Of a stretch of 64,000 bases of DNA, positions 9,709 through 62,764 are shown one piece after another. The notes under the pieces were generated by a model, which saw nothing but the letters and a program-made list of their open reading frames with translations, searched no databases and was not told the origin of the DNA. Every line of letters starts with the position of its first letter. Positions within the stretch are counted from its first letter, which is position 1. The position numbers and the translations under genes were made by a program. Origin of the DNA: Polynucleobacter necessarius (lineage in GTDB: Bacteria; Pseudomonadota; Gammaproteobacteria; Burkholderiales; Burkholderiaceae); NCBI RefSeq assembly GCF_900095215.1, contig NZ_LT606949.1:1214690-1278689 (forward strand), given 5' to 3'.

Positions 9709-10262
9709 GTGAGGCAGCTTTCCAGCCCATATGCATCAGCTGGTGCGCGCGGCCTGCTAGAGGGCGCCTTTGGAATTAGCCCTGATCATGCGGATTTCAA
9801 CTTACTGCGGGATGATTTTTTCAATAACTACGAAAAAGCATTGTTGGTAGAGAGTAAGCTATTTGATGGCATTGACCATCTGCTCGATCAAATGGATCAA
9901 GCAGGACTCCCGTGGGGAATTATCACCAATAAAAGCGAGCGCTTTACAAATCCCTTCACCGACCTCATGGGCCTTCGTCAGAGAGCTATTTCTACCGTTT
10001 CAGGCGACACCACCCCTTATTCAAAACCACATCCTGAGCCCATTCTGCACGCAGCCAGATCTACTAATATCGATCCCACTCGATCAATCTATGTTGGAGG
10101 CGATATCAGGGACGTTGTAGCGGGCAAAGCCGCTGGCAGAAGGCAGTGGCAGCCGCTTATGCCTACTGTGGCTGAAAAGAGCCTCCTGAGGCCTTGGGAG
10201 CCGATTACATCATCCATAGCCCGGTTGACTTACTAAAAATCATCTTTCCCAATAGGGATTAG
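9709..10262 (+). pseudogene. gph: phosphoglycolate phosphatase (HAD family), broken
   Basis: The downstream two thirds of a Gph-type HAD phosphatase are recognisable: cap region SPYASAGARGLLEGAFG, motif II in WGIITNKSERF, and motif III YSKPHPEPIL plus VGGDIRD. The first roughly 40 residues, including the catalytic DLDGTL motif, are missing, so the upstream joint with ubiG reflects a deletion. A one-base frame change near 10140 moves the C-terminus to another frame, where AVAAAYAYCG is followed by a TGA (10173-10175). The true end LLKIIFPNRD then stops at 10260-10262. Three lesions make function impossible. Confidence 0.9.
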
Positions 10263-10328
10263 GCTAAAAGATATCCAACAATTTAAAGCCAGCGGCTTTA
10301 AAATAAGAACATCCTATGCAAGCAATCT

Positions 10329-10687
10329 GGGACCGACATGGTTTCGACGTGGATTACAAAGCATCAAGGGCATACCGAGGACCCGTTATCTCGTAAATCA
10401 ATGGGAATGTAATAACTGCTAACGACGAACGTTACGCACTAGCCGCTTAATTGCGGTTGCCCCTGAACTGATTCTCTCTTGGGTCAGGTAGCACAAGCTA
10501 CATCAGGGTCATATACAAGAGATAAGACTATTTTGTGTCACGAAGAATAGTACGAAAACCTAGTGAATCGTCAGCGAGGAACGTGTCAATCCGTGCCTAA
10601 CTGATTAAATCAAACGATATGACTAAGTATGTAGAACTTGTTGTAGAGGATTTGCGGACGCGGGTTCGATTCCCGCCGGTTCCACCA
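10329..10687 (+). ncRNA. ssrA: transfer-messenger RNA (tmRNA)
   Basis: tmRNA rescues stalled ribosomes and tags the nascent peptide. The 5' GGGACCG pairs with CGGTTCC next to the 3' CCA to form the alanine-type acceptor stem. The T-arm GGGTTCGATTCCC is at the 3' end and the conserved GACATGGTTTCGACG is at the 5' end. The tag frame resumes at GCT (10418) and reads ANDERYALAA, ending in TAA (10448-10450). The CCA is encoded at 10685-10687. The one-piece form and the pseudoknot-rich interior are typical of betaproteobacteria. No sign of decay. Just upstream, TTTAAAGCC-AGC-GGCTTTAAA (about 10284-10304) can fold into a hairpin of unknown role. Confidence 0.97.
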
Positions 10688-10701
10688 TTTTTAAGTCTGT
10701 A

Positions 10702-10739
10702 AATGTTAAACGCCACCCTCCTCGGTGGCGTTTAACATT
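10702..10739 (+). terminator. long hairpin after ssrA
   Basis: A perfect 16-bp inverted repeat begins AATGTTAAACGCCACC, has a six-base loop CTCCTC and returns. It sits 15 bases beyond the tmRNA CCA end and has A/T-rich flanks in both directions. The next gene is convergent, so a bidirectional terminator or 3'-processing structure is likely. Confidence 0.8.
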
Positions 10740-10775
10740 GTTACTCGCGCATTACGCGCACGCATGATCTACGCA

Positions 10776-12847
10776 TCAATTAAATTGGTAGCTCATGCCA
10801 GCTTGAAAATTCAGCGGCGCTCCAGCAAAAATACCATCCGGACTTCGGCTAGCAATATAGCGTTTATCAACTAAGTTATTGATTACTCCAAATACTTTCC
10901 AATCCTTATTGATTGGATAGTTCGCACTCCAATTCACAGTCGCAAAAGCAGGTATCTCGCCTAAAGTTCCAATCGTATTTTGCGCCACCGTATTAGCTGA
11001 ATCAGCATATTGGGCAGAAACATAATTCAAACTAAGTAATGTATTCAACCCATTCTTTTCGTAACTGATTCCCAGATTGGAGGTGAGCTTAGGGGTGTAA
11101 TAAGGAATGCGATTGCCATCTCGTCCCAAGGAATTGGTTCCCACAAACTTTGCCACCGGGATATAGGTTGCATTTCCATTGATGCCCCAGCCGCGCCCCC
11201 GGGCATCAGCTAAAGAAGCCTCAGCACCTGGATGCAATCTTTTCCCACCATTCGCTTTTGAAATTCCAGCGGCCAAACTTGGATTCACGATCTGGTTGCT
11301 AAAGTTCATACTAAAAATAGCTGAATCATAAGAAAAAGCGCCTGCTCGTCCACGCAATCCCAATTCCATATTGGTAGAACATTCTGGCGCCAACTGCTGA
11401 TCAACCCCTTTGTCATCAATCGCTGTTGCCAATTGGGCTGGCGCAAAGCCTTTATAAATGCTGCCGTACACCTGAGCCTGGGGAGTTAGTTGCCAGGTTG
11501 CCCCAATTTGCGGAATTGTCTCCACATTTTTAGCGCTACCCGATTGACCGGTGATGACATTTGAACGAGTTTGGTTGTAGCTTGCAATTCGCACCCCCGG
11601 AATTACGGCAAAGTTTTTAGTTAGCAAAAATCGATTCTGGCCATGCATCGCCAACGAATTCGCTTTATTGTCTTCCTGCAATGAAACTCGACCGGAATAA
11701 GCCAAGGTTTGAGAGCTCACCAATTGATTAATTTGAGATTCTGTATGCAAACGGATAGCGAACTCCGCTTCGTTAGTGATGCCTAAGGCTTTGTATGCAT
11801 GGCTTACCCGAGAATCGATGCCTAGCATTTGAAACTCTCGATTGCGCCCAACTAGACAGTCAGAGCCAACATTGCACGCCTTAAAAATCGTAGCATCTTG
11901 GGTTCGATTCAAAATACTTTGTCGCCAATAGTCTCGCGACAACTTGCTCCAATACATCAAAGTATTGATTTTGGTATCTGAATTCAGCTCCAAAGAATGG
12001 TTGATATCCACTGCATTTCTTTGGGTAATAAATCGATCGTTTGACGGCAGATTATCTTTACTTCGATTCATGTATTGAGTGGGACGCAGCCCCACATAAG
12101 ACGTATTGATATTGTTGTCGTAATGCGTGTATTTCAGGCTGAGCCACTGATTTTGCGCAACCTCAATACCTCCCTGTAGGAGAATGTCATACATCTTAAA
12201 ACCATTGGCCTGATAACCACTAGACTCGGATTGAATCAAATTAATTCCCCCGATTGCGCCGTTCGATGACGACTTCCCTCCTGCCTCTATCTCCGCCAAG
12301 CGATAGCCATAATCACCCACTTTGCCGGTTAACTTAAACCCATGAGAAGGTGTTTTGCTGAGGTAGTTCACTACCCCACGTATTGCAAGCCAGATGCGCC
12401 CTTTAATACTTCAAGTCCAGAGATTCGTTCTATTGGCGGACTGTAATAAGAGGCATTTGAAATGAATAGGCTCGGTTGAATTGGTGCGTTCCTCCAACAA
12501 CAATACCTTTGAGCTACGGCTTGGATTCAGGCCGCGAATCGATATTGGGCATTGCCCCAAAACCGCCTTCATCCCCCCCGAATATTGACGCCAGGCACAG
12601 TCCGCAAGACATCCTGCAGTGATTGAGGCTGTAACTCCTCCATCTTTTGCTGATTGATAACATCGACCGTACCTGGAATTTTGCTCAAAGCATATTCTTC
12701 TGAGCAAACGATATCAATCTTAGGTAGCTCAATATCTTGATCTTTGGCCCAAGCTAAAGAAGAACTTCCATACAACAATGCAAATGATGAAATCCAGGCA
12801 AGCCCACATTTTGAGGACGAAAAACTACTTGATGCTTCATATACCAT
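10776..12847 (-). pseudogene. TonB-dependent outer membrane receptor (probable heme/siderophore), broken
   Basis: Reading leftward, the first piece (12570-12847) has a signal peptide and a plug domain with VDVINQQKMEELQPQSLQDVLRTVPGVNIRGG-type sequence. The frame then breaks near 12580. A middle piece (about 12411-12560) reads LEERTNSTEP in one frame and continues the plug in another. A large beta-barrel piece (10776-12371, 531 residues) runs to the C-terminal aromatic FQAGMSYQF. At least two frame changes separate the three parts. Lying just downstream of hemP and tonB suggests heme or hemin import, but the substrate is an inference from context. The barrel itself still looks clean, so inactivation is recent. 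Confidence 0.88.
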
Positions 12848-12916
12848 GTGATAACAAAAAATCGCTGGCTATATGCATATGAAAATGCTCTTGCTGGCTA
12901 ATGACTTATGACAGAA

Positions 12917-13826: not shown

Positions 13827-14999
13827 CTACTTAACAGCTAAACGCCAAAGTGAAGTCACTGCCTTTGATCGAGCAGCGTGCAAGGCATCTGTTTTATTGA
13901 ATACTTTTTGATGTGTTGGTTTGGGATCAATGCGACTCAACACTTTTAATCCAGCCTGTTCAACCCAACTAAGCAACTCCGCTCTTGTTCTCAAACCCAA
14001 ATGTTCGGCCAAGTCGGAAAGTATTAACCAGCCCTCACCGTCAGCGAGCAAATGATTCTTTCAATTACTCACAAAGCCCTTCAACATCTGACTCTCAGGA
14101 TCATATACCGCATGCTCTAGGGAGGAGCTTGGTCTAGCGGGCAACCATGGCGGGTTGCAAACAATGAGTGATGCTTTTCCTGATGAAAATACATTGGTTT
14201 TGAGAATTTCTATTTTGGATTGCAGGCCTAGACGCTCAATATTTTCTTGCGCACAGGCAATCGCGCGATCATCTAAATCTGTCGCAGTAATTTTTTGAAT
14301 CCCACGCAACGCCAAAACCACTGAAAGCACCCCAGCACCCACCCCAATATCGAATGCGGTGGAATTTTTCTTGATGGCTGCAGGCAACGGCGTCTTTAAC
14401 ACCAACTCGATATACCCTCCGCGCACCGGCGAAAACACACCGTAATGGGGATGAATACGAATCTCTTCATCGTCCCTTGTTAAAACCTGCACACCCTTCT
14501 TGCGCCACTCATGAGCGCTAATCACACCAAGCAATTCGCGCAAAGAGATAACGTAAGCCTCTGATTGAGGGCCATAAGTCTCAAGACATGCTTGAGCTAC
14601 ATTAGGAGCACGCCGCAAAGAGATGCTATAATCAGCATTCACCTGAAGCAAAATCATCCCGAGAATACGAGCGCGCTGTGACTGAGCAAGGCGATAGAGA
14701 TTGAATGCGTCTGAAGGGCTTTTGATCTTCTCTTTTGCCACCCTGTCAGCTCTGGTGGATTTCTTTGAGGGCTTATCAACTCTTCTTACTAAAGCCTGCA
14801 AGAGCCGCTTTGCATTCTGAAAGTCACCTTTGTAAAGCATCGCCGTACCCTCACAGGCGAGGCGATAAACCACATCCGCAGTCAACATATAATCGGCGAT
14901 TTGAATCCTTTTATGAGGGGCAATGCCGTTTTCAAAATGCCACTTAGCACTATGGGTTTGGCCACCCTCTCCCCACTGAAGAGTTACAGATGAGATCAC
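13827..14999 (-). pseudogene. class I SAM-dependent methyltransferase (N5-glutamine/RlmG-like), single in-frame TGA
   Basis: The first 312 residues contain a helical N-terminal region and a Rossmann methyltransferase domain with motif I FDIGVGAGVLSVVLALRG near residue 218. Motif IV is IVCNPPWLPAR, the NPPW form used by enzymes acting on glutamine or nucleobase amino groups. Translation stops at TGA (14061-14063). The same frame then continues without other lesion as LLADGEGWLILSDLAEHLGL to a stop at 13827, giving the normal C-terminus of about 77 residues. One substitution (for example TTA to TGA) accounts for the break. Substrate is unknown. A shortened product might fold but would lack the last strands. 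Confidence 0.82.
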
Positions 15000-15853
15000 C
15001 TAGGAAACCACAAGGCGATTATTTTGATAATCATCACTGGCCTGCTCTATCTCAGCACGGGTATTCATGACAAACGGTCCATATTGAACAATCGGCTCAT
15101 GCAGCGGTAAAGCCGCGAGCACAATGAATTGCGCGCCCATAGATCCAGCCCTAGCCTTCAAGCGATCTCCATCCCCAAGCACAATGGCAGCCTGCTTTGG
15201 AGCTGGCATCATCGGTCCACCTATCTCCAACTCGCCCTCATACACATAGACAAAAGCATTAAGCTCCTTGAGAATACGCTGTTCAAATTCAGCATTTGAA
15301 GTTAAATGCACATCCAAAAATAAAGGGGCTGTAGTAAGACCTTGAATTGGTCCTGGAACTTCCTCGCCATCGTGACCATAGGGGCCAGCAATCACGTTGA
15401 CTGACCCGCCATTAGCCAAGCTGACTTTGGTATATCCTCCGCTTGAATGTCTTTATACCCGGCCGCTTTCATCTTTTCCTTGGCGGGTAAATTAATCCAT
15501 AACTGAAAGCCCCGCATAGCGCCGCTCACTTATTGAGGCATCTCAGAATGAATAATGCCGCGCCCCGCAGTCATCCATTGCACGCCACCGGTTTTGAGGT
15601 GGCCCTGATTGCCCAAGTAGTCCTCATGCAACATGTGGCCCTCAAGCATATAAGTGACCGTCTCAAATCCACGATGTGGGTGCGCTGGAAAGCCTGCCAC
15701 ATCATCATTGGGGTCATTAGAAGAAAATTCATCTAGCATCAAGAAAGGGTCTAGCCGCACTTGATTTTGACCGCCAAGACTGCGCCGCAATTTCACACCC
15801 GCGCCATCCGAAGTGGTAATGCCGGGAATGATGGTTTGAGTATTGCGAATCAT
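15000..15853 (-). pseudogene. pirin family protein (quercetinase-like cupin), broken
   Basis: Pirins are two-domain cupins with a metal site in the N-terminal barrel. The upstream piece (15530-15853) has FPAHPHRGFETVTYMLEG, which supplies the metal histidines, and ends WMTAGRGIIHSEMPQ. TAA (15530-15532) follows, most simply CAA to TAA. The frame continues VSGAMRGFQLWINLPAK and then loses one base in an A-run near 15430. After that the C-terminal cupin resumes as LANGGSVNVIAGPYG to the stop at 15000. Two independent lesions mean no full-length product. It abuts the methyltransferase gene with no gap. Confidence 0.9.
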
Positions 15854-15894
15854 ATGGATGAATGCTTTGGCTTAGCCTTGACTGGGTGATGTCT

Positions 15895-17480: not shown

Positions 17481-17568
17481 GGATTTGTCTCCTGTCAATA
17501 AGACATTAAGGTTAACACCCCCGCAGCCTATTTGCTCGATAATTCGAGGGTATCCAAGTGAGAGAAAA

Positions 17569-18346
17569 ATGAAGTCGATTCTAAATATTGCCGCCTATTT
17601 ATTTGTCAGCCTAAATGTGACTTGCCAGCACTTCGCGCCAAAATGCTGGACGAATGGAATACACACCAGCTCAAAGGCACCATCCTACTAACAGGTGAAG
17701 GCATCAATCTGTTCCTGGCCGGCAAGGCGGATGAACTGCGTGGCTTTCTAGATTGGTTGCGCATGGACCCCCGCTTTAAACCCCTTGAGGCAAAAGAGAG
17801 CTGGTCTGAGGATCAACCTTTCAAAAAATGCTGATCAAACTGAAAAATGAAATCATCTGCATGAATCACCCGGCGATTCGCCCAGAAGAGGGTCGCGCTA
17901 ATTTCATTAGCCCTAAAAAATTACAAGAGTGGTTAGATCGTGGCACTGATGCTTGAGGTCGCCCTGTAGTCATGGTGGATACGCGCAATGCTGTTGAGGT
18001 CGACTACGGCACTTTTGAAAATGCTTTGCATTTCAATATCGAAAAGTTCACGGAGTTTCCCGCGGCTATCTCGGCACATAAAGAAGAATTAGCTGATAAA
18101 ACGCTGGTGAGTTTTTGAACCGGCGGGATTCGCTGCGAAAAATCAGGCCTATATATGCGAGAGATTGGCATGCAGCACAGCTACCAACTAGAAGGTGGGA
18201 TTTTGAAGTATTTCGAAGAGGTTGGCTCGGCTCATTACCAGGGTAGCTGCTTCGTCTTTGACGAGAGAGAGGCTCTTGAGCCAAACCGCGATTCCATCCC
18301 TGTAGAGCGCTCTATTCAAAAAAAACTGAAGGCTAATGCAGTCTAA
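17569..18346 (+). pseudogene. trhO: tRNA uridine(34) hydroxylase TrhO (YceA-type rhodanese), broken
   Basis: TrhO hydroxylates U34 of certain tRNAs. The start KSILNIAAYLFVSLN is normal. A one-base loss near 17620 shifts the frame to ALRAKMLDEWNTHQLKGTILL, and another in an A-run near 17828 precedes MLIKLKNEIICMNHPAIRP. A TGA then interrupts [16 protein letters not shown], and a second TGA replaces the first cysteine of the active-site loop normally reading CTGGIRCEK. The tail [16 protein letters not shown] to TAA at 18344-18346 is recognisable but shortened. Two frameshifts and two stops leave no doubt that it is dead. Confidence 0.9.
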
Positions 18347-18403: not shown

Positions 18404-19423
18404 ATGCGGACTCGAGACATGTCTAAAACAATTAATCGGCAAAAGCCGATTTTTTTGTCATCCCTACTCTTTGCATTACTGGGAATGACAATCACCCTAA
18501 ACTCCCAATCACAAAGTGCGGCCATCCTCTATCCAGTAAAGCCAATCAAATTGATTGCGCCAGTGGCGGCTGGTGGCGGTCTAGATAACATTGCCCGTGC
18601 TGTTGCGGCAAAACTTTCCCGCCCAATTGGCCAAACAGTGGTTGTGGAAAACATAGGTGGCGGAGGTGGATCAATCGCTTCACAAGCAACTGCAAAAGCC
18701 CCGGCGGATGGCTATACCCTCATGATTGCGTATGTTGGCACACACGGCACCAATCCCGCTGTGCGTAAATTGCCTTATGACGCCCTCAAAGATTTCACAC
18801 CCATCGGCATGATTGGCGCGACGCCCAACGTCCTCATCATTAATCCTGATTTGCTAATCAAAAATTTCAAAGCGTTTGTAGATTACGCAAAAAAGAATCC
18901 CGCTAAGTTAAGCTATGGTTCCGCAGGTCCAGGCACATTGACCCACCTTGGCATGGAACAGCTAAAGTTAGCGGCCGGCATATTTATGGTGCATGCACCC
19001 TATCGCGGCGTAGGCCCTGCTTATACGGATTTATTGGCTGGCCAAACTCAAGCCATGTTCCCAACTTTATTTACAGCGCTCCCCTACATCATCACCAATC
19101 GCGTTCGCAGTCTAGCGGTTACTGGCTCAAAGCGCAGCATCGCCGCTCCCAATATTTCCACCTTCAAAGAGTTGGGTTACAGCGGGTTTGATGGACAATG
19201 ATGGTACGGCTTAGTTGGCCCGGCAAATTTACCGCCTGCCATCACAGCAAAGCTAAATACCGAACTCAACAAAGTTCTCGCATTACCAGACTTCTTAGAA
19301 ACAATGACCAATGAAGCGATGACTTTAATGCCAATGACACCACCTCAGTTTGCCAACTACATTAAAGAAGATATCGCGCGCTGGGCCAAAGTTGCCAAAG
19401 ATCGCAATATTGAAATTGATTAA
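18404..19423 (+). pseudogene. Bug/TctC-family substrate-binding protein, in-frame TGA
   Basis: A periplasmic solute receptor of the tripartite tricarboxylate transporter type. The N-terminal 265 residues include a signal peptide, KPIKLIAPVAAGGGLDNIAR, VVVENIGGGGGSIA and APADGYTLMIAYVG. A TGA at 19199-19201 cuts the frame after YSGFDGQ. The same frame then continues WYGLVGPANLPPAITAKLN to its natural end IEID at 19421-19423. The missing 73 residues contain a conserved lobe and the closing helix, so the truncated product is unlikely to work. No other lesion is visible. Confidence 0.88.
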
Positions 19424-19482: not shown

Positions 19483-20849
19483 ATGTCTCACGCTATCGCC
19501 GCAGCAGCTGATCTCAACGCCCCACCAGCAACTAAAATTTTGGCTGAGTTTGTGCATGCTCACCCAAGTCAAGGCTGGACCCCAGCAGTTGAACATGAAG
19601 CTCACCGCACATTTTTACACTGGCTTGGTTGCGATATTGGCGCAGCTAACCATGAGAGCGTGGAATCTTCATTGGCCGCTATTCGTGAATTTCAACCTGC
19701 GCCACAAGCCACCATTCTGGGTCGCAAAGATAAAGTGGATATGGGTGGCGCCGCTCTTATAATGGCATCAGCTCGCACACATTCGACTTTGATGACACCC
19801 ATCTCAAAACGGTGATTCATCCAGCAGGCCCAGTAGCTTCAGCGATCTTAGCCCTTGGGGAGCAGATCGGTGCCAATGGTCGCCAAATGATCGACTCCCT
19901 CATCCTGGGAATTGATGTGGCTTGCCCTGTAGGCAATGCAATGTATCCAGATCACTACCATCGTGGCTGGCACATCACCGACTCCACTGGTATGCTAGGA
20001 TCTGCCGCCGCATGCTCCCGCCTAATGGGTCTTGATCTACAAAAAACAACTAGGGCCTTAGGTATTGCCGCCTCACAACCCGTAGGTATGCGCGCACAAT
20101 TTGGCACGATGACCAAACCGTTTCATCCGGGCGGCGCAGCACGCGCTTGTCAACTTTCCGCCTTATTAGCAAAGCATGGATTCACAGCAAGCCCTAAAGC
20201 ACTCGAAGCTGGTCTTGGCTATATACAAACTGTTTCCACTAAATACGATTGGTCAGAAATTGATCGCGCCCTAGGCAAGTCGTTTGAAATTTCCCTAAAC
20301 ACCTACAAGCCTTTTGCTTGCGGCATTGTGATTCACCCAGCAATTGATGCCTGCGCCCAATTACGCGCCCAGGGAGTGAAGGCGGATGAAGTGGAGCGCA
20401 TTGAACTACGCGTTCATCCGCTGGTGCTGGAATTAACTGGCAAGAAAACACCTAAAGATGGTTTAGAGGGCAAGTTCAGCGTTTATCACGGCTGCGCAGT
20501 GGGCTTAATTTTTGGCCAAGCTGGCGAAGGTGAATACGCTGACGAGATCGTAAACCGCCCTGACGTGGTGGCATTACGCGCCAAAGTTAACGCCACTACC
20601 GATTTAGCGAAGCTTCTGTTGACGTTACAGCCTTCTTAAAAGATGGCAAAGAAGTCCACATCTTCGTTAAGAATGCGATCGGCTCTGTTGAGAATCCAAT
20701 GAGTGACGCGAACCTGGAACAGAAGTGCACCAGCGTGGCTGAACCCATCATCGGTAAAGAGAAAACCCCGTCAACTGATTTCCGCACTCTGGAAATTAGG
20801 ACAAGCATCCGATCTCACACAAATCCTCAGTCTTTGCGCTCCTGATTAA
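19483..20849 (+). pseudogene. MmgE/PrpD family protein (2-methylcitrate dehydratase superfamily), frameshifted
   Basis: Members dehydrate or isomerise branched tricarboxylic acids. The first piece (19483-19770) reads to GRKDKVDMGGAALI, then a one-base loss shifts the frame. The expected NGISSHTFDFDDTHLKT is readable in the next frame and leads into the long second piece VIHPAGPVASAILALGEQ. That piece breaks near 20600, where RFSEASVDVTAFLKDGKEV continues in a third frame. A last shift near 20795 is needed to reach LGQASDLTQILSLCAPD and TAA at 20847-20849. Adjacent Bug and 2-hydroxyacid dehydrogenase genes suggest an organic-acid pathway; the substrate is not known. Confidence 0.88.
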
Positions 20850-24348: not shown

Positions 24349-24361
24349 AATCCGCTCTTTA

Positions 24362-27384: not shown

Positions 27385-27436
27385 TTTCTTCATCCTTACA
27401 GGATAACTCGCTTTTCCCGTAAAATGGAGGGAATTC

Positions 27437-43839: not shown

Positions 43840-43846
43840 ACTTTAC

Positions 43847-47399: not shown

Positions 47400-47434
47400 G
47401 GGTTTATTTTATTAGGTCAAGCAGCCAGAATGGG

Positions 47435-48400: not shown

Positions 48401-48409
48401 GATTCCCCC

Positions 48410-49655
48410 TTAATGGACCAAGTTCAAGCGGCCGCGAACTTCACCCATATGCCCCTTAAGGTCATAAAGCTCTTTGGCATCTAACATAGCGACCTTGATA
48501 TTGTTAACGCGTCTTTCTATAACCTCCAGACCCTTAAAGTTCTTTTCTTGCAGATCTGGATTTTGAGCATTTCTCTCGATCACTTTCAGTTCTTCGTACA
48601 CCTGAGCCAGCTTTAAGCGCAATAAAAAATTCTTCGCCGCCGGAATATAAGCGAATAAGGGAATCAAAATCACTAAAAATGGAATAACAATCTTGACAAA
48701 GCGCCCCCCATACGGCAGTCCAAAATGGCAAATGTCGATGCAAGAATGAGGGGCCATCTTTTAAATCAATCTCAGCATCGACATACAGCGGAAAATCCAA
48801 TCCAGCGCTTGATGGAAATTCACCCACTTTTTGCAAGAGTGAATAGGATTTCCAAATATCGTATGAAGCGCAAAGCAGGAGGGAAACTAACGCTGGGTTA
48901 ACATTTTCATGCGCAACCAAAGTGGCCGTTGCAGCCATAACCTGTATATCTTGACGGGGTTGGTCATACTGAATGCTCAATAAACCTCTTGGTACAGTGA
49001 CCTTGGATCAATAAGGCCAATTACGAGTGTAGGCATCTGCCTGATCAAAACCCATCAAACGGATGCCTGGAACAGAGTAAAACTTTCTTAGAATTGGCGT
49101 CTCTGCCGCAGCCACAACAAATACTGCATCTAACTCACCACTTCTCAATTGAACAATCGCATCATCCGGCTTAAGCTTCTGCGCGCCAATTTCTTTATCA
49201 GTGATGCCACTGGCCTGAAGCAAATCTTTGACGAGTGCCAGTGTGCCGCTTCCATCGTTGCCAATCGAAACGTTTTTCCCTTTTAACTGACTTAATAGTT
49301 TGAGTTGACCACCATCACCTTTGAAGGCATCTTCGCGATACCAAACCCAATTAGTAACTCCTCCCTGCACCATCCCAAAATCAACACCCGATTTCGGATC
49401 ATTTAAGAGCGCCAAATTATCCAGGGTACCGCCAGTAGAGCGCACCTTGAGGTCCACGCCGTCTTTAGCTAATTCGGCTTTCAGACGTTCTCCAAATTGG
49501 TAATACAAGCCAGTTGGCAAGCCGGTAGCCATTTCAGTTGATTTTGGTGGTGGGGGTATCAGAATCCACAGCACTCCAAAAAGGATGATTAGCAGCATGA
49601 AAAAGACTGCCACTATAGCCATAGGGTTGTAAATTTGTCTTTTAATGAAATTCAT
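48410..49655 (-). pseudogene. TAXI-family TRAP transporter solute-binding protein (membrane-anchored), broken
   Basis: The first piece from ATG 49653-49655 has an N-terminal anchor (MAIVAVFFMLLIILFGVLWI) and receptor text TGLPTGLYYQFGERLKAELA. KGKNVSIGNDGSGTLALVKD follows, ending TRNWPY. TGA at 49008-49010 interrupts, then the same frame continues VTVPRGLLSIQYDQPRQDIQ. A G-run near 48705 shifts the frame into RFVKIVIPFLVILIPLFAYI and the C-terminal coiled region, ending at 48410. One stop and one indel. This long TAXI type with a C-terminal membrane span is separate from the one at 31616. It lies directly upstream of a dead Bug receptor. Confidence 0.88.
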
Positions 49656-49770
49656 TTCAGTCTCTTTTGTTTTTTGCATTATGCCCAGAGCATGGCATTA
49701 GGAAAAGGTTTCAAAAGCGACTGCCCAAATCAAGATAAGATGATGCTGTTTAGAAGCCCTAAATACCATC

Positions 49771-50532
49771 ATGAATTTAGCAAAAACCAAGGTAGCCCTA
49801 GTCACTGGCGCGGGAACTGGGATTGGAAAAGCAGCCGCTAAGGCCCTTCTCAAAGGGGGCTATCCAGTAGTCTTCACAGGACGTAGTTTGGAGAAATTGG
49901 AGAGGGCTATAGCTGATATTGGCGGGGATCAAAGCAACTGCCTTGCCGTCTCCTGCGACGTGGGCAAACCTGATGAAGTCAAAAAACTATTTCAATAACT
50001 GAAAAATCGATTCGGGCGCATTGACGTTCTATTTAATAACGCCGGTATGGGTGCCCCCGCTATCCCGATGGAATATCTCACATACGAACAATGGATGAAT
50101 GTAGTGAATGCGAATCTTTGCGGAGCATTCTTATGTTCTCAAGAAGCGATCCGCATGATGAAAGCGCAATCTCCCCAGGGCGGCAGAATTATTAACAATG
50201 GATCTATTTCCGCTCATTCGCCAAGACCCATGTCCGCACCCTATACCGCGACAAAACATGCTATGAGCGGCTTAACGAAAACAATCGTCTTGGACGGTCG
50301 GCCCTTTAATATCGCCTGCGGTCAAATCGATATTGGCAATGCCGCCACTGAAATGACCGAGCGCATGGCCGCCGGAATTATGCAGGCGGATCAATCCATC
50401 AAAGTAGAACCGCGCATGGATGTAGATCACGTTGGCGAAGCGGTACTTCATATGGCTCAATTGCCACTAGAAAACAATATTCTCTCCATGACCATTATGG
50501 CTACCAACATACCTTATGTTGGTAGGGGCTAA
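49771..50532 (+). pseudogene. short-chain dehydrogenase/reductase, in-frame TAA
   Basis: A classical SDR of about 253 residues in one frame. The cofactor motif is TGAGTGIGKAAAKALLKGG, then [10 protein letters not shown], and the catalytic Ser/Tyr/Lys lie in [20 protein letters not shown] and TKHAMSG (YxxxK). TAA at 49996-49998 splits [16 protein letters not shown], most simply CAA to TAA. Everything else is clean, so this is a recent nonsense mutation. Its stop lies four bases from the convergent ccmI stop. Confidence 0.87.
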
Positions 50533-50535
50533 GTC

Positions 50536-51726
50536 TTACTGGCGAACTTGATCCACCAGTAGGCGCACATTATTCGCGCCGACTTTAACCGTCTGCACAG
50601 TGGACATTAAATCCCCCACCTCTGGCTTAGCCATTCCTGTTTTCGAAATACGTACCTCAATACTGACCTCAGACAACCGAGACAAAGGCGCGCTTGGATT
50701 CATTGCCAAAGCATCATTCAAAGTGAAGCTCATTGGAAAATTGGCGGCAGGCACTTTTAAAATAGCGGCCGGCATGCGCTCACCGAGCTTACGAGCAATC
50801 ACCATCACAATGTCATCTCGTTTAATTTTTAATTTCAGCTCAGCAGATAACTCAATCTTGCCACTGATTGCCTTACCTGCCGTAGCAGCAGGGCTTGGAG
50901 CGGTAAGACCGCCTTTAGTGCGCGCCTCAGCAATAGAGCCTTGAATAGCGCGCGCTTCATCTGTATTTGGCGGAAACTGTTGCGCCAATTTCCCCCAAAC
51001 CTGTACAGCTGCTTTGTAGTTTCCAGCGTTATAAGACGCCGTCCCAGAAAGCCAGAGCGCCATCAAATTATTGGGGTCCAGTTTTAAAGCCTGGTTAATT
51101 AACTGCAGAGGCTTTCCAACAAAGCTACCGTTCGCGTTACTTGCCAATACATCCGCATAGTCAGCCAACCGCTGTGGATCGGAATCAATAAAGCTACCTG
51201 CCCGCGCATAAGCTTTGGCAGCATCTTCATTGAGACCCAAAATGCGATAAGAGCGGGCAAGCATAGCCCAGCCTTTCAGGTTGCCTGGATCCTTTTCCAT
51301 TTTGATGGCAAATTCTGCCACCATTTTTTCAACACCTTCTTGGGTAACAGGCGTCTCAGAATTTTTCTGGGCTACACGAACAACGTCACCCAAAGAAAAA
51401 TAGAGGGCCGAAGACAGCAAGGCAATAAAGACACAAAGACCAATGGCAGTTTTCTTCGCGGAACCAGCAACCTCGCGATCATCTTCTTCAACTGTGTCCT
51501 GAAAAAGTCGTTGGCGCATCTCTGCATGCGCGATTGCATAATCAACAGAGGCAATTACGCCGCTCTGATGCTCGGCTTCCAATTTATCGAGCTCCTCGCG
51601 ATAGATGGCAGCGTTCATCTGGCGACGTGAGGTTGCTTTACTCTTGGCCGGCAAAATAAAGGGACGCAAAAGCAATACCAAAACCAACACGAGCAACAGG
51701 AAAGCGGGAATCAAAAAGCTAGTCAC
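50536..51726 (-). CDS. ccmI: cytochrome c biogenesis protein CcmI
   Basis: CcmI (CycH) delivers apocytochrome c to the heme lyase. The 396 residues start with a membrane helix (AFLLLVLVLVLLLRPFILP) and a cytoplasmic coiled segment. A second span (KTAIGLCVFIALLSSALYFS) is followed by a periplasmic TPR region (GWAMLARSYRILGLNEDAAK, then NNLMALWLSGTASYNAGNYK). The last 130 residues form a beta-rich C-terminal domain. It is the final gene of the ccm operon, five bases after ccmH. Intact. Confidence 0.93.
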   Translation of the reverse strand: MTSFLIPAFLLLVLVLVLLLRPFILPAKSKATSRRQMNAAIYREELDKLEAEHQSGVIASVDYAIAHAEMRQRLFQDTVEEDDREVAGSAKKTAIGLCVFIALLSSALYFSLGDVVRVAQKNSETPVTQEGVEKMVAEFAIKMEKDPGNLKGWAMLARSYRILGLNEDAAKAYARAGSFIDSDPQRLADYADVLASNANGSFVGKPLQLINQALKLDPNNLMALWLSGTASYNAGNYKAAVQVWGKLAQQFPPNTDEARAIQGSIAEARTKGGLTAPSPAATAGKAISGKIELSAELKLKIKRDDIVMVIARKLGERMPAAILKVPAANFPMSFTLNDALAMNPSAPLSRLSEVSIEVRISKTGMAKPEVGDLMSTVQTVKVGANNVRLLVDQVRQ

Positions 51727-51731
51727 TCGAT

Positions 51732-52205
51732 TTATCCTTCTTTCCTACCGGTCGCATTCAGCAATGCATCGATTTTCTGATTATCCGCATCCGTCAGGAT
51801 TGCAGTAGGAGCGCTACTATTTCTACGACGTAAATACATCAATAAGCCAGCGATGCCAATCGCCAGAATAGCAAATGGTCCAATCCACAGCAGCCAGGTC
51901 ACTGGCTTAACAGGTGGACGATAAAGCACGAAATCGCCGTAACGCTCAACCATGAAGGAACGGATCCGATCATCACTCTTACCTTCTTTAATCAGAATCC
52001 GAATTTCACGACGCAAATCATTCGCCAAATCAGAGCGTGAGCCTGCCAAAGATTCGTTTTGACATACCAAGCAACGCATTTCTTCTGAAATGCTAATCAG
52101 GCGCTGCTCCGTTACCGGATCATCCACTAGTGGCGCAGCCTCATTAGCAAGGACGCTACCCAGACTGCATACACCAACCGCGGCCAAGACAATTGGCTTC
52201 ATCAT
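51732..52205 (-). CDS. ccmH: cytochrome c-type biogenesis protein CcmH
   Basis: CcmH is a membrane-anchored thioredoxin-like reductant for apocytochrome c. The 157 residues carry a signal peptide (ending VLANEAA) and the redox motif MRCLVCQNESLAGSRSDLA with its CxxC pair. One membrane span (LLWIGPFAILAIGIAGLLMY) and a short cytoplasmic tail follow. Its ATG overlaps the ccmG stop by four bases. Intact. Confidence 0.95.
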   Translation of the reverse strand: MMKPIVLAAVGVCSLGSVLANEAAPLVDDPVTEQRLISISEEMRCLVCQNESLAGSRSDLANDLRREIRILIKEGKSDDRIRSFMVERYGDFVLYRPPVKPVTWLLWIGPFAILAIGIAGLLMYLRRRNSSAPTAILTDADNQKIDALLNATGRKEG

Positions 52206-52729
52206 TTCTTGAGCTCGCTCAACATGGGATAAATCTTTTGGTTCAACAAATCCATTGTTAATGGGCCAATATGCTTAAAGCGAATCACGCCTGTTTTATC
52301 AATGATGTAAGTTTCTGGAACTCCATACACCCCATAATCAATACCAACACGGCCATTTCCATCAAATGCTGAGAGCACATAAGGGTTGCCTTGTTTAGCC
52401 AACATCGCTAAAGCATCCTCACGCTTATCTTTGTAATCCAAACCAATCACTGGCGCCATTTGCGATTTGGCTAGCTCGCCCAAAACAGGATGCTCTTCAC
52501 GACAGGCGACACACCAGGATGCCCACACATTCAGAATCCACACCCGGCCCTTCATCCTAGCTGGTGAAAACGTTTTGCCGGGCTCAGCCAATTGAGAAAT
52601 CTCAAACGCAGGAGCTGCTTTATTGATCAAGGGAGATGGCACTTCGTGAGGATCACGATTCAATCCGATAGCCAAGAAAACAACTAGGCCAAAAAATAAA
52701 ATCAGAGGAATTAAAAATTTTGCCTTCAT
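52202..52729 (-). CDS. ccmG: thiol:disulfide interchange protein CcmG/DsbE
   Basis: A membrane-anchored thioredoxin that keeps apocytochrome c cysteines reduced for heme attachment. The 175 residues have an N-terminal anchor (FLIPLILFFGLVVFLAIGLN), the redox motif WASWCVACREEHP near residue 73, and the GVYGVPETYIID cis-proline segment typical of CcmG. It overlaps ccmF and ccmH by four bases each. Intact. Confidence 0.95.
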   Translation of the reverse strand: MKAKFLIPLILFFGLVVFLAIGLNRDPHEVPSPLINKAAPAFEISQLAEPGKTFSPARMKGRVWILNVWASWCVACREEHPVLGELAKSQMAPVIGLDYKDKREDALAMLAKQGNPYVLSAFDGNGRVGIDYGVYGVPETYIIDKTGVIRFKHIGPLTMDLLNQKIYPMLSELKK

Positions 52730-54645
52730 GCAAGCTTACTCTTCAATTTCAGCCGATAACGCTTATCTGACATAGCCAATACACCGCCCAAAGCCATTAA
52801 TAAGCAACCGCCCCAAATCCAGTCAACGAAAGGCTTGTAGTAAACACGTACTGCCCATGATTGATCACCCAACTCTTCACCAAGCGATACATAAATGTCA
52901 CGTGTCAGCCCAGCATCAATCGCCGCTTCCGTCATTGGCATCGTCGAAGAAAAATAGCTTCTCTTTTCAGGGTAGAGACGAATGGGTATTCCGCCATCTT
53001 TTGACAGCAAGAATGTCCCGCGCATGGCCTGATAGTTTGGGCCGCGTGCCGCATTAACACCCTGCAACTTAATTTGATAACCACCAACCATCACGGTATC
53101 GCCCGCTGACATGCGAACGTCTTTCTCTTCTTGATACGCACCTACCATCGTGACGCCAATGACAAACACGGCAATCCCCAAATGGGCCACCTGCATCCCA
53201 ATAAATGAGCGGGTGGGTTTACCTGCTTTCGCTTGACGCAGGATTTGCATACAGCCCGATGCAATCACCCAAAATGCCAATACGAAACCCATGCCTGCAA
53301 GCCAAGTAAATTGGCCCATGAGCAAAGGAATGGCAATGCCCGCGACCAAGGCAATGAGGCCAGCAATCCACAAACGCTTGATGATGCTGATTAAGTTGCT
53401 TTGCTTCCAGCTTGCCCAAGGACCAATACCCATCAACACCAATAAAGGAACCATGACGGGAACAAATACGCTATTAAAGTAAGGAGACCCAACAGAAATC
53501 TTGCCCAGATGCAAAGCATCAATCAGCAGAGGGTATAAGGTGCCAAGCAAAACAGATCCAGCGGAAACCACCAAGAAAACATTGCCCAACAAAATAAAAG
53601 TTTCTCTTGAGCTTAAGCTAAATTTACCGCCCATTGAACTCTTAGGCGCGCGCCAAGCGTAAAGCAATAAAGAAGAGCCCACTACCAGCGACAAGAAGAT
53701 CAAAATAAAAAGACCGCGCCTCGGATCAGTGGCGAATGCATGCACCGAGGTCAATACTCCGGAGCGAACCAAAAATGTGCCTAGCACAGATAAAGAGAAT
53801 GCGGTGATCGCCAGGAGCACAGTCCAACTCTTAAAGCCGCCGCGCTTGTCAGTAACAGCCAAAGAATGTAGTAATGCCGTGCCGACAAGCCAAGGAATAA
53901 ATGAAGCGTTCTCTACAGGATCCCAGAACCACCAGCCACCCCAACCTAATTCGTAATAAGCCCACCATGAGCCAAGAGCAATACCGAGGGTAAGAAAAAC
54001 CCAAGCAGCGGTAGTCCAAGGACGCGACCAACGCGCCCATGCGGAGTCCAGCCTACCTGACAACAAAGAAGCAATCGCAAAAGCACAGGCAACCGAGAAG
54101 CCAACATAGCCCATGTAGAGCATCGGCGGATGAAATACCAAACCAGGATCTTGCAAAAGTGGATTGAGGGAGCGACCGTCTTGCGCAGCAGGCAATAAAC
54201 GCTCAAATGGATTTGAAGTTGTTAATACCAATAACAACAAGCCGCTAGTGACCAACCCTAGTACGCCAATGACGCGCGCCACCATAAAGTCATCCAACTC
54301 TTGAGAAAGCTGCGCAACCAAAATAGTCCAGGTAGCCAATAAGAAGATCCACAATAAGAGCGAACCTTCATGACCAACCCAAACCGCACCCAATCGATAG
54401 ATCACCGGCAACTGGGAATTGGAATGCTCGGCAACATAGAGCACAGAGAAATCATTAACGTAAAAACTCCAAGCCAATATTCCGAAAGCGATTGCTAATA
54501 ATAGGAATACTGTTTGCGCAGCCGGTCTTGCTAAAACCAACCAATCGCGGCGACCATAGTGCGCACCGAGTAGAGGCAACGCCCCTTGAATCAGAGCAAT
54601 GCAAAGCGCTAGAACTAATGCGTAATGCCCAAACTCAGGAATCAT
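52726..54645 (-). CDS. ccmF: heme lyase subunit CcmF
   Basis: The large membrane component of the cytochrome c heme lyase. The 639 residues have about 15 hydrophobic segments. The WWD signature is [18 protein letters not shown] near residue 230, with heme-binding histidines in the flanking segments (for example [15 protein letters not shown]). A periplasmic domain with [15 protein letters not shown] lies near the C-terminus. Length and layout are normal; coupled by four-base overlaps to ccmE and ccmG. Confidence 0.97.
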
Positions 54646-55076
54646 TTAGCACTTCCATTTTTTTGCGCTTGATCTAAGGCGTATTTAGCCTCAGGAGGCA
54701 TATAATTTTCATCATGCTTTGCCAGAACCTCGCTAGCAATAAATGCCCCACTGGCATTCATACGACCTTGGATTACGGCGCCCTTACCCTCTTTGAATAA
54801 ATCGGGAAGAATGCCGGTGTAAGCGACTGGAATATCTTTAGCCATATCGGTAATCACAAAGTGCACTGTTAAGCCATCACGCTTTAATGAACCATCTTTC
54901 ACCATGCCGCCAATTCGAAAAGCCCGACCCTGAGGTGCTTTTCCGGCTGCCACTTCACTTGGGGTGACATACAAAGCGATATTGCTATTCATAGCATTCA
55001 AGATCAGCATCGCAGCAACCCCTATTACCAGGAGTGCGGCAACAATAATTAACGCGCGTTTATATCTAGGCTTCAC
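54642..55076 (-). CDS. ccmE: cytochrome c maturation heme chaperone CcmE
   Basis: CcmE carries heme covalently on a histidine in the periplasm. The 144 residues have an N-terminal anchor ([19 protein letters not shown]), an OB-fold domain with [20 protein letters not shown], and the heme-binding signature [12 protein letters not shown] near residue 124. That histidine and the following tyrosine are both present. Intact, overlapping ccmD and ccmF. Confidence 0.96.
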
Positions 55077-55261
55077 TTACCAATCTCTTTATCAAACTGC
55101 TCTGCTAATTGTTCTTGCTTTAACTGGCGCACGATCGCTCTAAAGCGAGCGCGTACAAATAAAGGCTCCAATACCAAAACCAGTGTGCAAACACCAAAAC
55201 TGCACCAAACATAAAGCGCGTAACCGCCCATAGCAAAAAACTCAGCTGGACTATTCCACAT
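55073..55261 (-). CDS. ccmD: heme exporter protein CcmD
   Basis: A 62-residue single-span protein that helps release holo-CcmE from CcmABC. It starts [20 protein letters not shown], runs through one membrane helix and ends in a basic/acidic helix with [16 protein letters not shown]. It is recognised mainly by size, the conserved [12 protein letters not shown] and position between ccmC and ccmE. Confidence 0.9.
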
Positions 55262-56031
55262 CAGCTTCTCACCTCAATGAATTGTCTCACCCAATCAGCA
55301 TGAGCTTCACGCTCCAAAATGATTGTCCTTACACGCATTAAGGCAACCGCAATGGTGTACATCCAAAGGCATAATGCCATCAATAGCATTCCCCAAAGCA
55401 TGGCTTGAGCCATCGCTGGCGCCTTAGTGAGAGAAACCGATGCGCCTTGATGCAAGGTATTCCACCACTTCACTGAAAAATAAATAATTGGCACGTTAAC
55501 TACGCCGACTAATGCCAAGATAGCGCTAGCCTTATCAGCACGACGAGGATCGTCGATAGACGACTGTAGCGCAATAAAGCCTAAATACAAAAATAAAAGG
55601 ATTAACTCTGAAGTGAGGCGCGCATCCCAAACCCACCAAGCACCCCACATCGGCTTGCCCCAAAAGGCACCAGTCCATAAAGATAAAAATGCCATCCACG
55701 CGCCTATGGGTGCCAGCGCTTTCGCCATCATGGCGGATAAACGGGTATTAAAAATGAGCCCGAGCCCTGCCCATGCAGCCATCACCAAATAAATGAACAG
55801 CGACATCCACGAAGCAGGTACGTGAATAAAAATAATACGGTAGCCCTGTCCTTGCACTGCATCGACTGGCGCCCCAAAGAAACTCACCCACAAACCAGCA
55901 GCGCCAAACAAGAAGGTCAAAACCCAAAATAAAGGAATGAGCTTGCCCGCCACCGGATAAAAGGTGTTTGGGCTAGATAACTTAAACCAGTTAATCAAGC
56001 GGTGGTTAGAAAAAGAATTGATCTGACTCAT
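55261..56031 (-). CDS. ccmC: heme exporter/transfer protein CcmC
   Basis: A six-span WWD-family protein that loads heme on CcmE. The 256 residues contain the tryptophan-rich motif WGAWWVWDARLTSELILLF near residue 138, with heme-binding histidines on the flanking loops (IIFIHVPASWMSLF and WNTLHQGASVSLT). The start overlaps the ccmB stop by four bases and its own stop overlaps ccmD by one. Intact. Confidence 0.96.
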   Translation of the reverse strand: MSQINSFSNHRLINWFKLSSPNTFYPVAGKLIPLFWVLTFLFGAAGLWVSFFGAPVDAVQGQGYRIIFIHVPASWMSLFIYLVMAAWAGLGLIFNTRLSAMMAKALAPIGAWMAFLSLWTGAFWGKPMWGAWWVWDARLTSELILLFLYLGFIALQSSIDDPRRADKASAILALVGVVNVPIIYFSVKWWNTLHQGASVSLTKAPAMAQAMLWGMLLMALCLWMYTIAVALMRVRTIILEREAHADWVRQFIEVRS

Positions 56032-56693
56032 TCAATCGCAATCTTGACAGCGGCACTACTTACCCAAGGAACAAATGCTAAAGCCAAAATCAATAATGCA
56101 CCTAGCAAGGAAAAATGACCTGAAGCATCTAAACCCACACTATTCGCATAAACAGCACCAGCGCCAAAAATAAGTACAGGAATAAACAGAGGAAGTATTA
56201 ACAAACTGAGCAACACACTTCCACCACTGACCCCCAAGGTCAATGCCGCGCCAATCGAACCTAGCAAGGATAGCACTGGCGTACCCAATAACAGGGTACC
56301 CATCAGCACATACAAAGAGCTGACATCCAGATCAAACTGAATACCGATAATCGGAGCTAAGAGTACGAGTGGTAAGTCGCACACCATCCAATGGGCAATG
56401 ATTTTTCCAGTCACCAGCAACACTAGGGACTGAGGGGATAAAACAAGCTGCTCCAATGTGCCGTCTTGATAGTCTGCCGCAAACATCCGATGCAAACCCA
56501 ATAAGGTAGATAACAGAGCGGCAACCCAAAGAACGCCTGGCGCCATTTTTCGGAATAAAGCGGGATCAGCACCTATTCCCAAAGGAAACAAGCTGGTGAC
56601 CACCACAAAAAAGAATAAAGCGGTAAGCACCTCGCTCTTACGGCGCATTACCAGCAACAAATCGCGACGAATAATTGCTAGCAAGGCCTTCAT
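56028..56693 (-). CDS. ccmB: heme exporter protein CcmB
   Basis: The membrane subunit of the CcmAB ABC transporter that powers release of holo-CcmE. The 221 residues begin LLAIIRRDLLLVMRRKSEVL and show six hydrophobic segments, including a glycine-rich one, LTLGVSGGSVLLSLLILPLF. QDGTLEQLVLSPQSL is typical of CcmB. Overlaps ccmA and ccmC by four bases. Intact. Confidence 0.95.
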   Translation of the reverse strand: MKALLAIIRRDLLLVMRRKSEVLTALFFFVVVTSLFPLGIGADPALFRKMAPGVLWVAALLSTLLGLHRMFAADYQDGTLEQLVLSPQSLVLLVTGKIIAHWMVCDLPLVLLAPIIGIQFDLDVSSLYVLMGTLLLGTPVLSLLGSIGAALTLGVSGGSVLLSLLILPLFIPVLIFGAGAVYANSVGLDASGHFSLLGALLILALAFVPWVSSAAVKIAIE

Positions 56694-57337
56694 AGATCGA
56701 GCGTCCTCACCTGTGGAAGGCTGACTTCTTGATGGCTAGTTAAGATCACCAAACCACCTTGCTCGATATGTTCTACTATTAACCCTTGCAATGCCTGCAC
56801 CGCATGGATATCCAGCGCATTGCATGGCTCATCCAAAATCCATAACTTTGCTTGACGCGTCAGCATGCGGGCCATCAAAACGCGACGCTTTTGTCCGGCC
56901 GATAAACAACTCACCGGCAGGTGCTCACGCGCGCGCAATCCAAAACGCCAGAGAGCAGCTAGGGCCTTCTCATCTGACAACTCAATACCATCCAGCGCCG
57001 CATAAAACTGAATATTTTCTAGCGCAGTGAGATCTTCTTTTAGGGCATCGCGATGCCCTAAAAACAAAAGCTCACGATGATAGTTAGAGACGTCTTTTGC
57101 AATAGCTTGGCCATTCCACAAAATCATCCCAGCCTCTGGTGTGGACAACCCTGTCAGCAACCTTAAGAGGCTAGTTTTCCCAACGCCATTCTCACCACGC
57201 ACATGCAAACATTCCCCACTTGAAATCGTTAAATCGAGATCCTGGAATAGGTGTCTTGCACCCCGAATACAGCAAAGCGTACGAGCTTCAAGCCTGAAAT
57301 GCGGATTGTTTGAAGGGGAATAAGTGTCAACTGTCAT
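56690..57337 (-). CDS. ccmA: heme exporter ATP-binding protein CcmA
   Basis: The ATPase of the CcmAB complex. The 215 residues contain Walker A GENGVGKTSLLRLL near residue 50, the ABC signature CLSAGQKRRVLMARML, Walker B KLWILDEPCNALD and a switch histidine in VILTSHQEV. It is the first gene of the nine-gene operon, so its promoter lies in 57338-57532. That stretch is AT-rich, and I see no confident -35/-10 pair in it. Confidence 0.96.
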   Translation of the reverse strand: MTVDTYSPSNNPHFRLEARTLCCIRGARHLFQDLDLTISSGECLHVRGENGVGKTSLLRLLTGLSTPEAGMILWNGQAIAKDVSNYHRELLFLGHRDALKEDLTALENIQFYAALDGIELSDEKALAALWRFGLRAREHLPVSCLSAGQKRRVLMARMLTRQAKLWILDEPCNALDIHAVQALQGLIVEHIEQGGLVILTSHQEVSLPQVRTLDL

Positions 57338-61213: not shown

Positions 61214-61303
61214 GATGGCGTCTCAGAATAATGGTATTTATTAGAGCACTATAGACCAAGTTGAGAGTTAAAGCATATGACGCAATGCGTCATTTTCAGG
61301 ATC

Positions 61304-61714
61304 TTATTTCCAGAAAACCGATAACGTTTGTGATGAGTCAGACTTAATGGATATAGATCGTTTTTGCACTACACTTTCATAGCTTGCTTCAAGCGTATAG
61401 TCGCCCGGCACGAGATTAACCAACATATATGGTCTCTCCGCCTGAGCATCAAAAATCACTTGTTTCGTTGAGCCCATGATTTTGATACTTGCACCAAAGA
61501 TCCAAACACATCTGCCATTCTGAATTTGCGATAGCTCCAACAATAGCGGCCACTGTTTTGCTTCAGCCAAAATCGCGGTTGATTCACCCTCACCTACGCC
61601 ACCAGTGATATAGGAAACACCTTTTGAATGCTGCGTATCTGGAATGTGCGCTAAGGCCCAAGAAGTCGCTAAGAGCAGCTGAACAGAGATGATGATTGTG
61701 AGAAGCGCTTTCAT
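61304..61714 (-). CDS. secreted hypothetical protein, carboxypeptidase-regulatory-like fold
   Basis: A 136-residue protein with a signal peptide (LTIIISVQLLLATSWALA). The second half resembles a small Ig-like or carboxypeptidase regulatory repeat: RPYMLVNLVPGDYTLEASYE and SVVQKRSISIKSDSSQTLSV. The first half has no motif I recognise. The frame is intact and ends 90 bases before the neighbouring dead hydrolase. A periplasmic structural or binding role is plausible but not shown. Confidence 0.7.
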   Translation of the reverse strand: MKALLTIIISVQLLLATSWALAHIPDTQHSKGVSYITGGVGEGESTAILAEAKQWPLLLELSQIQNGRCVWIFGASIKIMGSTKQVIFDAQAERPYMLVNLVPGDYTLEASYESVVQKRSISIKSDSSQTLSVFWK

Positions 61715-61744
61715 ACTTCTATCTTACGACTGATTGGGCCAGAA

Positions 61745-61768
61745 AAAAGCCCCGGCAACGCGGGGCTT
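61745..61768. terminator. intrinsic terminator downstream of the quinone oxidoreductase remnant
   Basis: AAAGCCCCG, loop GCAACG, CGGGGCTTT. A 9-bp GC-rich stem with A/T ends between two minus-strand genes. It most likely terminates the transcript of the quinone oxidoreductase gene whose stop lies at 61792. Confidence 0.85.
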
Positions 61769-61791
61769 TCCTAAAACTAAACGCTGACGAC

Positions 61792-62764
61792 TTAAGGAGT
61801 CATCACAATAGCGCCGGAGACTTTTCTACCCTCAGCAGCACGATGGGCATCGGCAGCTTGCGCCAATGAAAACTTCGCGCCGATCTACACTTTGACATGG
61901 CCTTTAGCAATCGCATCGAATACCGCCTGGGCATTTTCTTTCAACAGGGCCGCAGTTGCGTTATTTGGAAACACTGACGGTCTTGTTAAGAATAAACAGC
62001 CCTTCTTGATTTCCGGCTGAATCTCTGGGGCTGGACCTGAAGCGGAGCCAAATAGGGCAACGGTTACAAATGGAGCAGTGCAATCTAAAGAACCTAAGAA
62101 GGTGGTTTTCGCAACGGAGTCATAAACCACATTTGCTTTTTTACCGCCAGTTGCCTTAATCACTTCTTCAACCCAGTTTGGCTGTGAGTAATCCACCACC
62201 GCATCGCAACCAGCCTCCTTGGCGGCAGCGAACTGCGCATGGGAGCCAACAGTACCAACCACAAAGGCGCCCAACGCTTTTGCCCAACCAGCCAAAATTT
62301 GACCAACGCCACCAGCAGCTGCGTGCACAAGCACCACATCGCCCGCTTTTACCTTGTAAGTTTTCTGAACAAGATATTGCGCAGTCATCGCTTTAAAGAA
62401 AACGGCGGCAGCCACTTCATCCGAAATGCCGTTAGGAATCAACACCAATTTATCAGCTGCAACATTACGAACGCTGGCATATGTGCCAATACCGGCGTTC
62501 ATATACACAACGTGCGCCCACCTTAAAGTCAGTAACACCTTCGCCCACAGACTCCACAACGCCAGCAGCCTCATGTCTCAGGCCCGTAGGCATCTCCAGT
62601 TGGTATACGCCAGAGCGCTGATACACATCAATGAAATTGAATCCAATAGCGGTTTGACGAATTTGCACTTCACCTCTTGCTGGTAGCGGTAATTCTTTAT
62701 CAATCACCTTGATTACGTCAGCACTACCTAGTTCTGTCAGACTAACAACTCGAGCTTTTGTCAC
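61792..62764 (-). pseudogene. zinc-independent NADPH:quinone oxidoreductase (QOR), broken
   Basis: A medium-chain reductase. From GTG 62762-62764 the first piece reads ELPLPARGEVQIRQTAIGFN and LRHEAAGVVESVGEGVTDFK. A frame change near 62510 separates VYERRYWH from MNAGIGTYASVRNVAADKLV. The clean middle has the cofactor motif VLVHAAAGGVGQILAGWAKA. TAG at 61885-61887 cuts GHVKV/IGAKFSLAQAADAH, and the natural end GAIVMTP stops at 61792-61794. One indel and one nonsense mutation. Confidence 0.9.

Follow-up and report, generated by a model that had tools for sequence, protein, structure and literature searches.

The window analyzed here is a stretch of 64,000 nucleotides (G000:C1:1214690-1278689) from G000, a genome consisting of one contig of 1,703,354 bases with a reported completeness of 99.94%, and the section under study covers positions 9709-62764 (53 kb). 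GyrA from the window matches Polynucleobacter at up to 97%, and the genus is confirmed as Polynucleobacter. The gene order of the window is common to all five near relatives with which it was compared, genomes whose lifestyles are presumed, and positions 1-9735 share about 85% nucleotide identity with them. The features of the window are collected in Table 1, where the family names of broken genes were mostly taken from the relatives' intact genes. The tmRNA was the sole match in an Rfam search of the window, and a 157-aa member of the ccm block (51735-52205) matched NrfF below the cut-off. At 57533-59277 lie two YceI genes and one for cytochrome b561, all intact, which matched none of the genes in the stretches of the five relatives. 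Two large deletions were found. The first removed the start of ccoP, ccoO, ccoN, a P-type ATPase, an MFS gene, and the start of a TctC gene; it cuts through the cbb3 operon and was absent from the first-pass annotation of this DNA. The second removed DUF3833 and chalcone-isomerase-like genes.

Table 1. Broken and intact features of the window (positions are those of the window)
Feature	Position	Strand	Remarks
Intact block: tyrA-, hisC-, pheA-, serC-like genes, gyrA, ompA, ubiG	1230..9700	.	intact-gene test
Broken HAD hydrolase behind ubiG	9709..10259	+	2 frameshifts, 1 stop; family from relative's gene
Intact tmRNA (ssrA)	10329..10687	+	
Broken TonB-dependent receptor	10776..12850	-	two pieces with stops, 4 frameshifts
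Broken PrmA/MTS-type methyltransferase	13830..14999	-	1 stop
Broken pirin	15000..15871	-	1 stop, 1 frameshift
Broken UPF0176/rhodanese protein	17562..18343	+	2 stops, 1 frameshift
Broken TctC receptor	18404..19420	+	1 stop
Broken MmgE/PrpD enzyme	19483..20846	+	3 frameshifts, stops
Broken TctC receptor	23030..23929	+	3 stops
Broken CrcB-like gene	23977..24528	-	2 frameshifts
Broken MFS transporter	27407..28641	+	only 1 frameshift, in run of 6
Broken D-2-hydroxyacid dehydrogenase	29698..30633	+	3 frameshifts, 2 stops
Broken DHDPS-family enzyme	30629..31581	+	2 frameshifts
Broken NMT1-type receptor	31607..32577	+	only 1 frameshift, in run of 5
Broken TRAP DctM permease	32645..34400	+	1 stop, 257-base deletion
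Broken mandelate racemase/muconate lactonizing family enzyme	34386..35612	-	2 stops
Broken 3-hydroxyacyl-CoA dehydrogenase	35716..36500	+	pieces in three frames, ~43 codons missing
Broken SulP permease	38600..40314	+	4 frameshifts
Intact Fnr-type regulator	41109..41870	+	best NCBIfam match Fnr, 220.9 bits vs cut-off 228
Broken 86-aa ORF adjoining cco genes	41879..42152	-	only 1 frameshift, in run of 5; without Pfam family
Broken ccoG/fixG-like gene	42363..43846	-	1 stop, 1 frameshift
ccoP 3' remnant	43850..44476	-	1 stop; 5' part lost at deletion junction
Junction of ~6.7 kb deletion	44467..44476	.	same jump vs G113, G093, G081, G062
TctC remnant without start	44471..45190	+	
Broken AtuA-family gene	45274..46630	-	2 stops, 1 frameshift
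Broken 2OG-Fe dioxygenase	46644..47408	-	1 stop, 2 frameshifts
Broken TctC receptor	47438..48394	-	2 stops
Broken NMT1-type receptor	48408..49697	-	1 stop, 1 frameshift, 54-base deletion
Broken short-chain dehydrogenase	49744..50532	+	1 stop
Intact cytochrome c maturation genes, ccmI to ccmA	50536..57337	-	
Broken zinc-type alcohol dehydrogenase	61795..62767	-	1 stop, 1 frameshift
Second deletion	62855..62909	.	2.0 kb vs G113, 2.5 kb vs G093; just past 9709-62764

A gene was scored as intact when 85% or more of the reference protein was covered by a single open frame, and the 80 test genes were genes conserved in near relatives. This rule scored 37 genes as intact, 24 as broken, and 19 as absent in the window, the last class being a mix of deleted genes and genes lying outside the fetched stretch. 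In each of the five relatives, 74-80 of the genes were intact by the same rule and at most one was broken; these relatives supplied the test genes and are thus favored in the comparison. Three genomes of 1.67-1.77 Mb that supplied no test gene (G064, G038, and G067) had 3, 1, and 1 broken genes, with 21, 37, and 37 test genes, respectively, not found in their stretches. Two genes were dropped from the 24, one cut by the window edge (G113|27) and one a 107-aa ORF at a deletion junction (G093|145). The TonB receptor, the MmgE/PrpD enzyme, two TctC receptors, and the 3-hydroxyacyl-CoA dehydrogenase were added by position, which brought the total to 27; the last of these (G113|45) had first been scored as intact via a paralogue at 39% identity and was reclassified. 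Set against about 31 intact genes, a hand count of 26 test genes and five window ORFs with Pfam families, approximately 47% of the genes in 9709-62764 are broken. The first-pass annotation had put the share at roughly half and the number of pseudogenes at about 24, in good agreement with these counts. It had also described the housekeeping genes as clean, and we found no lesion in gyrA, the tyrA-, hisC-, pheA-, and serC-like genes, the fnr-like gene, ccmI to ccmA, the tmRNA, or the MarR ORF, nor in ubiG, ompA, and the YceI and b561 ORFs. Since intact genes are defined by the absence of lesions, the contrast between clean and broken genes is partly circular, and the non-circular test is the overlap of the broken genes with those of other lineages. 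Twelve lesion marks were noted across 36 intact genes; most of them lie at the ends of genes or cancel one another. A chromate transporter with a 2-base gap near its start (G113|70, 22415-22930) is a borderline case that was scored as intact.

The broken genes include parts of uptake and transport systems (TctC, NMT1, TRAP, TonB, MFS, SulP, and CrcB) as well as many oxidoreductases and catabolic enzymes, a pirin, a HAD hydrolase, a methyltransferase, a UPF0176-family rhodanese, and cbb3. The genes kept include those for aromatic, histidine-, and serine-type biosynthesis, gyrA, ubiG, ccm, and the fnr-like gene; the amino-acid biosynthesis genes covered, all of them in the window (tyrA-, hisC-, pheA-, and serC-like), are intact. 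A chromate transporter, cytochrome c', b561, a LigB-type enzyme, and peptidases were kept also, and thus the loss of catabolic and transport genes is not total. The earlier proposal that selection was lost on scavenging and catabolism stands insofar as such genes dominate among those broken, but it does not cover the methyltransferase, the HAD hydrolase, the cbb3 oxidase, or the UPF0176/rhodanese protein, which presumably belongs to a tRNA-modification family.

The 27 broken genes carry 24 in-frame stops and 32 frameshifts in a tally that leaves out gene ends; an alternative tally (23 genes, 28 stops, and 52 frameshifts) was set aside because it counts misalignments at the ends of truncated genes. 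Larger events are the deletions of 257 bases (DctM gene), ~6.7 kb, and 2.0-2.5 kb. A mutator was considered as the cause of the lesions, as the stops seemed rich in transversions, but the polarized spectrum at fourfold sites (71 changes) had no clear bias relative to that of the relatives, although the counts are small. Because in-frame stops occur in 17 of the 27 broken genes, single indels in runs of 5-6 bases are the sole lesion in only three, and the same genes are broken elsewhere by different lesions, sequencing error is an unlikely cause of the lesions, as the annotation had argued. That the lesions are mostly errors of sequencing or assembly appears very improbable even though 11 of the 32 frameshifts lie in runs of at least five bases, given the ~6.7 kb and 257-base deletions and the reported completeness of the genome. 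There is next to no chance that the stops are read through or recoded in genes that still work. Such genes would be expected to show the low dN/dS ratio described below, which is shared by broken and intact genes, but the stops comprise all three codons (TGA 10, TAA 9, and TAG 5) and occur alongside insertions, deletions, and gene loss that no single recoding covers, and 37 of the 80 test genes are translated normally with table 11. Recoding was rejected on these grounds.

Gene decay extends beyond the window. In five 60-kb blocks sampled elsewhere in G000 (300 kb) and scored in this genome alone, 53 of 173 testable genes (31%) are broken, where 204 of 377 reference ORFs were left out for want of a 60%-identity match in the block and up to ten genes cut by block ends may be scored as broken. 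Open frames of at least 150 aa cover 69-84% of these blocks, 87-90% in G093, and 68% of the window. A six-gene tree (7035 nt) places G000 in a clade with G081, G036, G113, G093, G092, G062, L004, and L005 (99% support), to whose members it has ~86-87% nucleotide identity. At 1.703 Mb, G000 is smaller than its near relatives, the contigs of which measure 1.87 (G093), 1.92 (G081), and 2.23 Mb (G062). Small size and a high pseudogene load are both features of reduced genomes of the endosymbiont type. The shift to high A+T typical of long-established obligate symbiont genomes is not seen in the window, either in G+C content, which at 46.7% has not fallen relative to the five relatives (45.2-46.1%), or at fourfold sites, where G+C over the six genes (0.459) is higher than in the five near relatives (0.402-0.416), opposite to the usual drift of symbionts.

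The decay is also recent, as had been proposed from the readability of the surviving segments. On the window branch (dS 0.65-0.79), dN/dS is 0.049 for broken genes (0.043-0.058, 20 genes) and intact genes (0.044-0.056, 31 genes) alike; the same two gene sets give 0.032/0.029 in G093, 0.041/0.049 in G081, and 0.061/0.049 in G062. By our own arithmetic from dN/dS, any share of the branch that the broken genes would have spent under neutrality is below about 2%. The comparison of the two sides of the lesions, which the first-pass annotation had suggested as a check, pointed the same way. In 18 genes, codons past the first lesion are conserved no less than those before it, with dN/dS of 0.062 (0.046-0.084) upstream and 0.041 (0.034-0.052) downstream. 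Broken genes have raised dN/dS relative to intact genes in G031 (0.050/0.036), G034 (0.063/0.051), G036 (0.049/0.038), and G050 (0.063/0.045), but not in the window, and for this reason decay in the window looks younger than that in these four genomes, subject to saturation of dS. In G033 and G032, dS of the broken genes is saturated. Because decay in the window is this recent, the broken genes still bear visible traces of past selection, and the order of loss is open to study.

Several other genomes of the genus are degenerate in the same region, with 21 (G031), 25 (G033), 21 (G036), 24 (G050), and 10 (G034) of the 80 test genes broken. These genomes are scattered in the tree: G036 joins G081 (100% support), G033 joins G032 and L006 (90%), and G034 joins G035 (100%), with weaker positions for G031 (56%) and G050 (73%). 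Of the 57 core genes, 23 escaped breakage in all six degenerate lineages, where 9.2 would be expected (5000 shuffles gave at most 16), and 21 core genes are broken in at least three of the six versus 15.2 expected (sd 1.9, maximum 22). Of the core genes broken in the window, 18 of 21 are broken also among the five other degenerate genomes, versus 13 of the 36 that are unbroken in the window (p 0.0003, or 0.003 when its first 9.7 kb are left out); for G034 alone, the overlap with the broken set of the window is not significant (p 0.44). Common ancestry of the lesions was considered and rejected. When seven genomes (the window, G031-G034, G036, and G050) were compared pairwise (21 pairs), only four lesion pairs of the same type lie within 4 bases of one another, namely one between G050 and G032, two in one gene between G034 and G050 (one at the same position), and one between the window and G033 in neighboring codons, a near miss; no lesion among those compared is shared with the window. 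As judged from the genes and their lesions, largely the same genes have been shown to be lost independently in other lineages. G035 has 8 broken genes among the 60 found. Between gyrA and the remaining syntenic region, this genome also has a stretch of ~50 kb (G035:C1 ~1041000-1091000, L116-L119) at 53-58% G+C, versus 45-47% around it, that is probably an insert.

An alternative explanation is that a free-living lineage moved recently into a constant or rich habitat and, with no host involved, is shedding genes for uptake and catabolism. The window looks free-living in its synteny, G+C content, and biosynthesis, and 25 of 144 high-quality Polynucleobacter genomes, G000 among them, lack a FixO match. 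We nevertheless regard this explanation as improbable, since the five near relatives have almost no broken genes, the small genomes G064, G038, and G067 have few, and the pattern of loss agrees with that of the other degenerate lineages.

The loss of a terminal oxidase deserves separate consideration. Lesions break ccoG and ccoP in the window, and ccoO, ccoN, and the cation ATPase gene have been deleted, whereas G031, G032, G033, G034, G036, and G050 carry intact copies of all five genes. No FixO match was found in G000; given that 119 of the 144 genomes have a match, some of them distant, and 25 have none, the absence of FixO is not rare in the genus. G000 keeps one COX1 (open over 553 aa), COX2, and COX3, and cytochrome bd was not found in this genome. 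Thus, aa3 seems to be the sole oxidase of G000 among the types sought (cbb3, aa3, and cytochrome bd). The opposite is seen in G050, in which cbb3 is intact, COX1 and COX3 of aa3 are in pieces, and COX2 is absent; COX2 is missing from G050 alone among the 144 high-quality genomes. G036 retains both cytochrome c oxidases. It is possible, although we consider it rather doubtful, that two independently decaying lineages each depend on one, opposite oxidase and that which one survived reflects the oxygen conditions, in host or habitat, that prevailed at host entry and not chance. Such opposite losses would amount to a measurable prediction on oxygen supply inside hosts. Among the papers listed by a literature search, judged by titles and opening abstracts, none dealt with oxidase loss in Polynucleobacter symbionts.

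Taken together, the window is very probably part of a 1.70-Mb Polynucleobacter genome in early genome reduction of the kind known from Euplotes endosymbionts. Uptake receptors, transporters, catabolic enzymes, and one of the two terminal oxidases would recently have been released from selection. Their genes would then have accumulated point stops, small indels (of which a third lie in short runs), and an occasional deletion, whereas selection would have continued to act on biosynthesis, replication, cytochrome c maturation, and the aa3 oxidase. We infer that dependence on a host and fixation of the lesions by drift were parts of this process. The first-pass annotation had likened the pattern to that of Polynucleobacter endosymbionts; the genus is correct and the pattern fits, and endosymbiotic life of this lineage is suggested by analogy only.

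Boscaro and colleagues reportedly described P. necessarius endosymbionts of Euplotes, STIR1 and others, in 2013 and 2017. According to published accounts, the Euplotes endosymbionts of the genus have reduced genomes with many pseudogenes and distinct origins (PMC11253213, PMC5018217), and STIR1 has 1279 genes in 1.56 Mb (PMC4285135). The decay described here fits the genome reduction known from these endosymbionts, and since such reduction is already known, our finding extends a known system. G000 resembles them in genus, reduced size, and many pseudogenes, and, as far as the window shows, may also do so in keeping amino-acid biosynthesis. The degenerate genome nearest to the window is G036 (86.5% nucleotide identity), which has an overlapping set of broken genes but groups with G081 and not with the window, and has no lesion in common with it in the 11 genes broken in both. 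G050 is likewise similar in its number of broken test genes and differs in having lost aa3 and kept cbb3. Several lineages with different lesions provide a replicated natural experiment.
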